Below are positions 7,069-13,397 of a stretch of DNA of 13,397 nt, piece after piece. A model generated the notes under the pieces. That model saw only the letters and a list, made by a program, of their open reading frames with translations. It was not told where the DNA came from and searched no databases. The stretch is from Nanoarchaeota archaeon (GTDB lineage Archaea; EX4484-52; LFW-46), in assembly GCA_018897155.1 (NCBI GenBank), contig JAHILE010000056.1, forward strand, positions 1 through 13,397, in the 5' to 3' direction. The position numbers and the translations under genes were made by a program. The stretch's first letter is position 1, and every line of letters begins with the position of its first letter.

Positions 7069-7117
7069 CTTTATTAACAATCCGCGCTAACATAATCTAG
7101 TAAATGTGGTGATTGTT

Positions 7118-7519
7118 ATGCGCAAAATTCTCCTTGAAAAAATCAAAAAAGCTTTCAGAACAGAGAAAAACGTATTATTTGCTTACGTTTACGGAAGCTT
7201 TGGAAGAGGGGAAAAGGATTACAGCGACATTGATTTAGCAGTATTTCTCAAGAAAATACCGAAAAACAGCGCGCCTTATGAAGCAAAACTCGGACAAAAG
7301 CTTGAAAAAGAAACAGGAAAGCCGGTTGAAGTAAGGATTATGAATTCAATGCCGCTGCTTTTGAAATCGCGCGTATTCAAGGAAGGAAAAACAGTATTTT
7401 CAAGAAATAAGAAGGCGCGCGTCAGTTTTGAAACCGCATTAATGAGCCGTTATCTTGATTTTTCATATATTATGCAAGAATACGACCAAAGGAGGCTTGA
7501 ACGGTATGGCATTGGATAA
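7118..7519 (+). CDS. mntA: MNT-type nucleotidyltransferase antitoxin
   Basis: This is a minimal nucleotidyltransferase of the type that pairs with HEPN toxins. Characterised MntA proteins neutralise HepT by transferring AMP to a tyrosine near its active site. In the 133 residues, GSFGRG (26-31) and SDIDLAV (D37, D39) form the canonical motif. The third acidic position appears to be Glu71 (PVEVRI) rather than the common Asp. The ATG at 7118 is preferred over GTG codons at 7106 and 7109 because the GGTGAT ribosome-binding site would otherwise lie inside the gene. The 3' end overlaps hepT by 14 bases, a strong sign of translational coupling. Confidence 0.88.
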   Translation: MRKILLEKIKKAFRTEKNVLFAYVYGSFGRGEKDYSDIDLAVFLKKIPKNSAPYEAKLGQKLEKETGKPVEVRIMNSMPLLLKSRVFKEGKTVFSRNKKARVSFETALMSRYLDFSYIMQEYDQRRLERYGIG

Positions 7520-7934
7520 ATCGCTTGTAAATCTTAGAATCGATGTAATAGAAAGGAATCTGAAAGAAATAAAAAGCATTCTTGATGAAGGCGAGGAAAA
7601 ATTCCTTAAAACCTATAGAACCACATTGGCCGGAAGGCATGCGCTTCTTGAGTCTATTGAGGCTTGTATTGACATTGGAAATCATATAATCGCAAGCATT
7701 GGACTAAGGAGACCCGAGGATTACAAAGACGTATTTTCTATCTTAGAGGAAAACCGCGTTATTTCAAGAAATCTTTCGGAACGATTGCAAAAGATGGCAA
7801 GTTTCAGGAATCTTTTAGTGCATTATTACACGAAAGTTGATGATAAGGCTGTTTTTTCCATTATGCGCGAGGATATCAAAGACATCACAGAGTTTGTGAG
7901 AACAATACTGAAGTTTATGGCTGAAAAAGCGTAA
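7506..7934 (+). CDS. hepT: HEPN-domain toxin, HepT (DUF86) family
   Basis: HEPN toxins of this family are RNases whose active site is RX4HXY. Here R101, H106 and Y108 in RNLLVHYY fit exactly; Y108 is the position that partner nucleotidyltransferases AMPylate in studied systems. The 142-residue product is mostly helical, as expected, with YRTTLAGRHALLESIEACIDIGNHII matching the usual first helical motif. The ATG at 7506 follows an AAAGGAGG sequence (7488-7495) and gives the family N-terminus (MALDKSLVNLRIDVIERNLKEI). It overlaps mntA and converges on pyrI with nine bases between stops. Such pairs behave as plasmid or island stabilisers or defence modules; the role here is unproven. Confidence 0.9.
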   Translation: MALDKSLVNLRIDVIERNLKEIKSILDEGEEKFLKTYRTTLAGRHALLESIEACIDIGNHIIASIGLRRPEDYKDVFSILEENRVISRNLSERLQKMASFRNLLVHYYTKVDDKAVFSIMREDIKDITEFVRTILKFMAEKA

Positions 7935-11421: not shown

Positions 11422-12084
11422 TTATGCCTGTTTTTTCTGCGATTCCATCGTGTATAGGACGCGCACAAGCTCGCCTTCATTTTCGATAACTGTGGGTATA
11501 TTTTCTTCAGATATTTTTTGCCTTAATGTATTGAAATAGCTCAAAAGGTCCTTTTCAGAATAGAATGACAGCATTGTGAATAACATTCGAGTTACAATAT
11601 CTGCGCCGTATTTCTTGCAGAATGGCATCATGTTTGATACAAACACGAAAAGCCGTATATCGTCAAATATTGTGGAGCCAGAACTCTTTATTGTGCTAAG
11701 GTCATTCCTGTAAAGCTTTTTTAAGAGAACTCTGTCGAAAAGGATTGTGTGATTATGTTCTATGAACTTTTGCATTGCGGGCATTTTTTCTATTATGAAG
11801 CTGTTAAGCGACCAGCCGCTTTGGTCTGTGAGTTTGTGTTTCTCAAGCACATACGATGGTATCCAATCGAATTTGGCTGTCGGACCTTTTTTCCCATTTT
11901 GCATATATCCTTGTTCAATCATGTTCTTCAAGAGGGATTTTCCAAGCCCTTTTTCTTTATGATATAGGTAGTTTGTCGTGATTTTCCATTCTTCCTGTAT
12001 TTTGAACAGGGATGTTCCTTCAGGATCTCCTGCGCATTCAAGCCAAATAAGCCAAAAGTTGCTGTATTCAAAAAGCTTTTTCAT
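11422..12084 (-). CDS. Predicted DNA-binding regulator (winged-helix N-terminus)
   Basis: I do not recognise the family. In the 220 residues, the first about 75 (FWLIWLECAGDPEGTSLFKIQEEWKITTNYLYHKEKGLGKSLLKNMIEQGYMQ, then a basic GKKGPTAKFDWIPSYV) have the spacing of a helix-turn-helix plus wing, as in archaeal transcription regulators. The remainder is helical with no transmembrane segment and may be a sensor or dimerisation part. A strong ribosome-binding site, TAAAGGAG (12091-12098), precedes the ATG, unlike most genes here. A GTAC-N4-GTAC dyad lies 63 bases upstream and two more lie further on toward the divergent secreted-protein gene, so it is the obvious candidate to bind them. It could be co-transcribed with pus10. 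Confidence 0.65.
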   Translation of the reverse strand: MKKLFEYSNFWLIWLECAGDPEGTSLFKIQEEWKITTNYLYHKEKGLGKSLLKNMIEQGYMQNGKKGPTAKFDWIPSYVLEKHKLTDQSGWSLNSFIIEKMPAMQKFIEHNHTILFDRVLLKKLYRNDLSTIKSSGSTIFDDIRLFVFVSNMMPFCKKYGADIVTRMLFTMLSFYSEKDLLSYFNTLRQKISEENIPTVIENEGELVRVLYTMESQKKQA

Positions 12085-12146
12085 AACGATCTCCTTTACA
12101 TAAGGTATCTTTATACTATTCTTTTTTTAATGCGTTTAAGCCACGT

Positions 12147-12162
12147 AGGTACTAAAGTACTA
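12147..12162. promoter_or_regulatory. GTAC-N4-GTAC dyad, site 1
   Basis: AGGTAC-TAAA-GTACTA. It is the site nearest the predicted regulator gene, in the zone where that gene's promoter should be, so it could mediate autoregulation. Confidence 0.65.
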
Positions 12163-12176
12163 CAAGGCTGCTGACG

Positions 12177-12197
12177 CTGATTTTAAATCAAAATCAG
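12177..12197. promoter_or_regulatory. Inverted repeat between dyad sites 1 and 2
   Basis: CTGATTTT (12177-12184) and AAAATCAG (12190-12197) are perfect complements separated by five bases. It may be a further protein site or part of the minus-strand promoter region; AT-rich bases here make chance pairing possible. Confidence 0.35.
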
Positions 12198-12213
12198 ATG
12201 GCATGGTTATATT

Positions 12214-12229
12214 TAGTACGAATGTACTA
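12214..12229. promoter_or_regulatory. GTAC-N4-GTAC dyad, site 2
   Basis: TAGTAC-GAAT-GTACTA, a perfect 6+6 dyad and the best copy of the three. Its centre is 67 bases from site 1 and 124 from site 3. Confidence 0.7.
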
Positions 12230-12337
12230 TATATCCTTTCATTTTGCAAAATTTTTGAAATTTAGGGGGTATTTCTGGGCACGGGCAAAAAAGTTTTGGC
12301 CAAAAAACATTTATGAAAATAAGTGGTATGTTTATAA

Positions 12338-12353
12338 TAGTACATCAGTACCT
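12338..12353. promoter_or_regulatory. GTAC-N4-GTAC dyad, site 3
   Basis: TAGTAC-ATCA-GTACCT. It ends about six bases before a TATA-like TTTATATG on the plus strand, next to where transcription factor B contacts DNA, so a bound factor could either recruit or block it. Confidence 0.65.
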
Positions 12354-12359
12354 TAAAGC

Positions 12360-12383
12360 TTTATATGCTCTGATAAGCATATA
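12360..12383 (+). promoter_or_regulatory. Candidate TATA box with overlapping inverted repeat
   Basis: TTTATATG (12360-12367) is a good TATA candidate for the secreted-protein gene and would give a leader of about 70 bases. TATATGCT (12362-12369) and AGCATATA (12376-12383) form an 8-bp inverted repeat over it. A second AT-rich stretch (about 12391-12409) is an alternative TATA with a shorter leader. AAGGGGAT (12445-12452) lies five bases before the ATG and may be a ribosome-binding site. The rest of the 12085-12457 gap holds no credible gene. Confidence 0.4.
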
Positions 12384-12457: not shown

Positions 12458-13366
12458 ATGAAATCTAAAATGGGATTTTGTTATTTGACAGTATTTGCTG
12501 TTTTGGCTTTTCTGATTACTGCACAGGCTGCAATCGCAGCTACGACAAATAATACTGTTACGGTTAATATTAACATTTCCTCTGTTGGCGCAATAGTCGT
12601 TCTTCCAAATTCGCTTTCATGGACAACCGGTGAATTAGGTTCTATTAATCCTGGTGCTGATTCAGCAGTCAGCAATCTTATAATCAAGAACACCGGTTCG
12701 GTTAATGTGAGCAGCATATATATGAATGCAAGCACAGTTGGTGACGAACCTTCTAATCCGCTTCAGACCGCAGATGCTGCCTATTATTCAGCAGCTGGTT
12801 TGGTGATGGTAAAAAACGCTACAGATACGTCATTTTATCATGCAGGGCGCCTTGAGTGGAATCTTTCAACAGTTCTTACTGATGAAACACTAAATTTAGC
12901 TGGAACTACTGGAAAATTCTCACATGGCTGGTACCGGAATGCTTCAGGTAATGAGTATCTCTGGAAGCTTGAAAACGGAACAAATGGCTTTTGCAATAAC
13001 ACGGCTACGACCTTTGCAATTAAGGTAATTCCTGAAAATCAGACAACTATGAACAGAAATTTAGCTGCTGGATTGTCTGCCTGTAGTGCAGTCACAACAG
13101 GAACTGATTGGGGTGTATTCACATGTACTGATGGGCCTCTTGCAGATCAATGCGTTGCAGCCGCATCTACATGCGATAAAATATACATTTATAAATATTA
13201 TGCCACGTTGGCCGATTATCCAACTTGTACAAATAGCGATTATTTGAGACGGGCTAATATAGTGCCCGGCGATGAAGCAGCATTTTCTGTTAAGGCTTCG
13301 GTACCAAAAGGAACGCCTGCAGGAGATGCTGTAACAGGAACTCTGACAATAATCGCAACCTACTAA
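12458..13366 (+). CDS. Secreted sequon-rich surface protein
   Basis: The family is not recognised. The 302-residue product has a classic signal peptide: a short basic start, a hydrophobic core (about 8-22) and an AQAAIA-ATT cleavage region near 27. The mature part is rich in Asn, Thr, Ser and Ala, with ten N-X-S/T sequons (N31, 39, 83, 90, 120, 135, 161, 173, 180, 194) and six cysteines (C179, 209, 223, 232, 239, 257), enough for three disulfides. There is no second membrane segment or lipobox. The end, VPKGTPAGDAVTGTLTIIATY, is a beta strand pattern common at the tails of archaeal secreted Ig-like proteins. A glycosylated cell-surface or S-layer-type role is likely but inferred. Its long upstream region with three dyads suggests tight control. 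Confidence 0.8.
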   Translation: MKSKMGFCYLTVFAVLAFLITAQAAIAATTNNTVTVNINISSVGAIVVLPNSLSWTTGELGSINPGADSAVSNLIIKNTGSVNVSSIYMNASTVGDEPSNPLQTADAAYYSAAGLVMVKNATDTSFYHAGRLEWNLSTVLTDETLNLAGTTGKFSHGWYRNASGNEYLWKLENGTNGFCNNTATTFAIKVIPENQTTMNRNLAAGLSACSAVTTGTDWGVFTCTDGPLADQCVAAASTCDKIYIYKYYATLADYPTCTNSDYLRRANIVPGDEAAFSVKASVPKGTPAGDAVTGTLTIIATY

Positions 13367-13397
13367 ATAATGACTGAACGGCCGGTCCTCCCAAAGA

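Follow-up and report, generated by a model that had tools for sequence, protein, structure and literature searches.

Three palindromic dyads in the gap between a regulator gene and a divergent surface-protein gene are probably operators of the regulator, a predicted winged-helix protein of 220 residues encoded on the minus strand (11422–12084) of the 13,397-bp stretch of DNA analyzed here (the window), which comes from an uncultured archaeon. Dyads of this kind precede the regulator gene across the phylum, so the protein most likely regulates its own gene, and perhaps that of the neighboring surface protein as well. The genome comparisons give good support to a previously undescribed, autoregulated operator/regulator pair, because the dyad travels with the regulator and commonly adjoins TATA boxes at the regulator promoters. 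A literature search found no characterized specific transcription regulator in Aenigmatarchaeota and no described archaeal regulator with a GTAC dyad, nor TrpY/TGTACA.

The full window was scanned for GTAC-N4-GTAC, and three matches were identified at 12149–12160, 12216–12227, and 12340–12351. All of them fall in the 373-bp gap that separates the divergent genes. The first-pass annotation had described three dyads in this gap and none elsewhere in the window, and the scan and the shuffles confirm this. It had also read all three as TAGTAC-N4-GTACTA. That reading is correct for the GTAC cores, but the full consensus is perfect only at site 2 (TAGTACGAATGTACTA; 12214–12229), which touches the minus-strand TATA box facing the regulator. 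Site 1 (AGGTACTAAAGTACTA; 12147–12162) retains an exact GTAC core, site 3 (TAGTACATCAGTACCT; 12338–12353) is flanked by TTTATAA (12331–12337) and TTTATATG (12360–12367), and each has two mismatches to the consensus in the outer bases. The three sites are strandless, as is an inverted repeat, CTGATTTTAAATCAAAATCAG (12177–12197), that lies between sites 1 and 2 and is similar in G001, the other genome of the genus. Dinucleotide shuffling of the gap (5000 shuffles) gave no N4 dyad in 4992 cases and one in 8, and the highest count for any single spacer of 0–20 in 300 whole-window shuffles was two. Half-sites do overlap TATA-like sequence, and many of the isolated matches in other genomes are inside ORFs and resemble chance hits. 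Nevertheless, the idea that the dyads are chance palindromes in AT-rich promoter DNA is refuted by the shuffle tests and by the phylogenetic recurrence described below, and its probability is negligible. An Rfam search of the 373-bp gap returned nothing approaching threshold.

N4 is the commonest GTAC-GTAC spacer within the range 2–8 in the 1.43 Mb genome, with eight exact occurrences compared to two to three each for N2, N3, and N5–N8. Scanning the genome for TAGTACN4GTACTA, as the first-pass annotation had proposed, gave just one further perfect copy, located at C16:27190. This copy belongs to a related block. A strandless 45-bp core between sites 2 and 3 of the gap (12261–12305) recurs once in the genome, giving two copies in total, and the second copy is on the opposite strand at C16:27224–27268 with 96% identity. 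The core is flanked by dyads at both places. Gapped alignment of the gap with C16 stays collinear all the way from site 1 to site 3, core included, with a score of 101 compared to a shuffled maximum of 48. At C16, 16/16 core bases are kept in both flanking dyads and the remaining sequence is mostly diverged. The aligned counterparts of site 1 are AGGTATAAATGTACTA in G001 and CAGTACTTAAGTACTG in the C16 copy. The C16 block is flanked by convergent genes and has no obvious target, and from its sequence it looks like a decayed duplicate of the regulator/surface-gene control region. The second dyad-core-dyad block and an integrase-like gene downstream of the surface gene could also point to a dispersed repeat or mobile element that ends in GTAC dyads. 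This explanation is extremely unlikely. Only two copies exist in the genome, the G001 block is at the orthologous place, and the wider distribution of the dyad in other families without the 45-bp core already largely refutes it.

Conservation of the sites beside regulator orthologs was determined with a generalized dyad, TWRTAY-N4-RTACWA, allowing at most one mismatch. Orthologs were found at 21 places elsewhere, 19 were scored for upstream dyads, and the dyad was present upstream in 19 of 19. There were 36 generalized dyads in the 6.0 kb upstream of these orthologs compared to 20 in the other 165 kb of these loci, where the dyad is thus about 50 times rarer, and 25 were observed in 11 distal loci compared to 0.51 in shuffles, enrichments that are partly circular because the pattern was drawn up after viewing the distal sites. 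The unmodified pattern of the first-pass annotation was therefore also run on the 11 distal loci as a stricter control free of this circularity, and with up to three mismatches it gave 13 matches compared to 0.81 in shuffles (maximum 4 in 200). The dyad is often paired in distant relatives: one copy is near –35 relative to the start codon and the other near –143, a separation of about 110 bp. In the f4 genomes (0.9–1.3 Mb), none of the 10 sites with no more than one mismatch is farther than 300 bp from the regulator gene. The three f4 genomes that lack the regulator have zero such sites, a co-occurrence that alone is not independent evidence because the dyad before the regulator vanishes along with the gene. 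These data place a recurrent palindromic site in the regulator's own promoter across the orthologs, the arrangement expected of an autoregulator.

Other conserved elements were seen upstream of the regulator. A strongly conserved leader-like element, TTTTTTGCCCACGGCTTAAACGGGTACTTTTTTTT, lies 100–200 bp upstream, between the dyad and the start, at four f4 loci (L074, L077, L078, and L079). The distal clade (L125, L127, and L129–L132) has a conserved CCGAGCCTSTGG between its two dyads about 80 bp upstream. The consensus RNA fold of the distal leaders is weak (–1.81 kcal/mol) and unconvincing. Three dyad-like sites are found in 150 bp at L107:4012–4161 (G032:C112), apart from that genome's regulator gene.

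The generalized pattern occurs at about nine places in the window's genome compared to five to six estimated by chance from base frequencies, and the places examined are mostly within ORFs or a tRNA-like gene. A wider regulon is therefore not claimed. Two candidates, C53:1341 inside a repeated ParB-like reading frame and C38:11592 near an ORF start, are probably chance matches. The matches in f7 genomes are mostly within ORFs. A one-mismatch dyad in the window's genome (G000:C1:7906–7921; L020) has a TATA-like left flank and follows a hicB-like gene, with a hicA toxin gene beginning about 12 bp beyond it. Within the window, adjacent nucleotidyltransferase-like and HEPN-like small genes (7106–7934) resemble, by eye, an MNT-HEPN toxin–antitoxin pair. 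The dyads could be operators of another, unlinked transcription factor that regulates the regulator and its neighbors. A perfect copy, TAGTACGTATGTACTA, located between a different HTH gene and hisS (L108:4393–4408; G005:C55) in a genome that lacks the regulator would fit such a factor, as would the site just ahead of hicA. However, the close matches in the regulator-bearing f1 and f4 genomes nearly all cluster at the regulator gene, which is the signature of a local autoregulator, and the regulator itself has a predicted DNA-binding fold. An unlinked factor is thus unlikely, and the neighboring regulator is the preferred candidate.

The position of the dyad relative to the TATA box is also conserved. 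The f1 and f4 regulator promoters read TATA-TAGTAC-N4-GTACTA, with the dyad directly on the downstream side of TATA. The corresponding box in the window (TATATA; 12228–12235, minus strand) adjoins site 2 and is probably the main promoter of the regulator. The same TATA–dyad junction is found in G001, G015, G022, G028, G019, G004, and G026. A TATA-like box, ATAGTATAAA (12110–12119, minus strand), is close to the regulator start and may be a proximal promoter. Site 1 begins 63 bp upstream of the ATG, near the regulator's start as the first-pass annotation had placed it, but the conserved regulator-promoter arrangement is matched by site 2 instead.

In five f4 genomes, the promoter of a MinD-like ATPase gene downstream of the regulator carries a second dyad, placed upstream of its TATA box. 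The distance from dyad to TATA is 7–8 bp in G019, G028, and G004 but larger, about 15 bp, in G022 and G015, a layout similar to that of site 3 in the window, which is 6 bp from the TTTATATG TATA. This dyad is missing in G010, which has no regulator gene, and in the two f1 genomes (G000:C9 and G001:C19), where the MinD-like gene is unlinked to the regulator. G026 is a counter-example: the regulator and minD-like genes are adjacent, yet minD has no dyad. The gene order around the regulator in the wider phylum (L120–L132, e.g., L130:3–10636) is a surface protein of about 1600 residues, the regulator, the MinD-like ATPase, a small membrane protein, and two coiled-coil proteins. This conserved order looks like an uncharacterized surface apparatus.

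Adjacency to a ParA-type ATPase gene, found in f4 and the distal loci and not in the window's genus, raises the possibility that the dyads are parS/SegB-like partition sites and the regulator a SegB-like centromere-binding protein that partners the MinD/ParA-type ATPase. The resemblance to Sulfolobales SegAB is that a small protein, predicted here to bind DNA, is encoded directly before a ParA/MinD-family ATPase, both in f4 and more widely in the phylum. Palindromes precede the first of the two genes and, in f4, the second as well, much as SegB sites are upstream of segAB (PMC12284271). SegB, however, has a ribbon-helix-helix fold and about 45 chromosomal sites, most of them intragenic (PMC12284271), whereas the regulator is a predicted winged-helix protein with few promoter sites, and its motif, gene order, and neighbors differ. 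The ATPase ends in a helix-like tail (e.g., FLTRIAKMFRFGRK) reminiscent of membrane-bound MinD, and its neighbors are coiled-coil and giant surface proteins. The regulator and the ATPase are unlinked in the window's genus, where the ATPase promoter has no dyad. A partition function is very unlikely on this evidence, and the dyads are better read as operators.

The regulator structure was predicted with AlphaFold. An earlier input of 9 sequences gave a poor model (pLDDT 46), and 21 sequences gave a model with a pLDDT of 88.8. The model has an N-terminal winged-helix-like part (residues ~8–70) and a C-terminal helical domain (residues ~93–210). An invariant TNYLYHxE segment (residues 37–44) is located in the predicted winged helix, a fold that would provide the sequence-specific DNA-binding domain of a local autoregulator. 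Comparison with the PDB returned many winged-helix regulators with Z scores of about 4 (best 4–5) across about 70 residues, but no match at E ≤ 0.001 and every Z below 5, which is too weak to assign a family. The regulator has no Pfam or NCBIfam family, and Pfam and NCBIfam searches with 21 members gave no match to the AsnC-type HTH and RAM (AsnC_trans_reg) domains of Lrp/AsnC proteins. The regulator resembles MecI-, IclR-, and PadR-type repressors in its predicted N-terminal winged helix, but it has no sequence match to these or to MarR-type regulators, and its C-terminal domain is unmatched. The 21 loci with relatives are in records labeled Candidatus Aenigmatarchaeota, DPANN, Nanohaloarchaea, or archaeon, and no homolog was found in viral contigs and plasmids. 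The regulator is present, always as a single copy, in 9 of the 34 genomes of the window's order. The family thus appears confined, so far, to Candidatus Aenigmatarchaeota and closely labeled DPANN records. These comparisons suggest a new family with a known kind of job, local autoregulation.

The gene on the other side of the gap (12458–13366, plus strand) encodes a 302-residue secreted/surface protein with a signal peptide and no Pfam family. The plus-strand TATA box TTTATATG, which reads TTTATATACC in G001, is probably its promoter. The protein has 10 N-X-S/T sequons compared to a mean of 4.9 in shuffles and, judged by sequon count alone, may be glycosylated. The G001 counterpart, at the same genomic place, shares 62% identity with it, a protein encoded next to the regulator in the distant L128 locus shares 42%, and a partial homolog faces the regulator in G032. 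The f4 orthologs (54–62% identity) are on contigs other than the regulator's. Both genomes of the genus have a dyad near the surface-gene promoter, site 3 in the window and TAGTATATTTATACTA in G001, where the sequence aligned with site 3 is degenerate and the dyad is about 15 bp further upstream. Dyad-like matches around the f4 surface genes are inside ORFs or downstream, with the exception of a weak generalized match, TAATATTATAGTTCTA, at the surface-gene start in G024, which itself lacks the regulator. The first-pass annotation had proposed an operator/regulator pair that controls a glycosylated surface protein. The pair is borne out by the phylum-wide dyads upstream of its orthologs, but the case for surface-protein control is a dyad near the promoter in two genomes of one genus, which makes the surface gene a plausible target in that genus only. 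Linkage of the regulator to the surface gene recurs in some lineages, but the f4 promoters have no convincing dyads, so this control is seemingly not ancestral. The constant target appears to be the regulator's own promoter, and the MinD-like gene is the likely second target in f4. The last 141 bases of the window (13257–13397) coincide exactly with the beginning of contig C53, on which ParB-like repeats and an integrase-like gene follow.

The analysis itself yields the dyads, how they are conserved alongside the regulator, where they lie relative to TATA boxes, and the predicted fold, whereas binding, dimerization, start sites, the sign of regulation, and any effector are inferred. One dimer would bind each 16-bp dyad. 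At site 2, a dimer against the downstream edge of the regulator's TATA would block pre-initiation complex assembly or RNA polymerase recruitment, giving negative autoregulation. Site 1 lies closer to the regulator gene than site 2 does and would act as an auxiliary operator. A dimer at site 3, just upstream of the surface gene's TATA/BRE, could either activate by recruiting TBP or repress by blocking TFB, and activation is slightly favored. Pyrococcus furiosus LrpA is an autorepressor whose operator borders its own TATA box on the downstream side (PMC2995911). The sites described here likewise lie in the regulator's own control region with an operator downstream of TATA, but the regulator has no Lrp/AsnC domain by Pfam, and its operator sequence and predicted C-terminal domain are different. 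The archaeal activators Ptr2, LysM, and Ss-LrpB work from positions a few base pairs upstream of BRE (PMC2995911). Site 3 and the f4 minD-like dyads are similarly a few base pairs upstream of BRE/TATA, but the regulator is not of the Lrp family and activation by it is putative.

It is possible, though doubtful, that the regulator family is specific to the phylum and that its dyad code controls an uncharacterized Aenigmatarchaeota cell-surface apparatus composed of the giant surface protein, regulator, MinD-like ATPase, small membrane protein, and coiled-coil proteins; the regulator would then have been uncoupled from that operon in the window's genus and rewired to a different surface protein. 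The analysis provides a regulator family, its probable DNA code, a predicted fold, and a testable layout, with the dyad downstream of TATA at the regulator's own promoter and upstream of it at targets. It also draws attention to a conserved operon of MinD-like, coiled-coil, and surface-protein genes, which may be important for the cells of this lineage.
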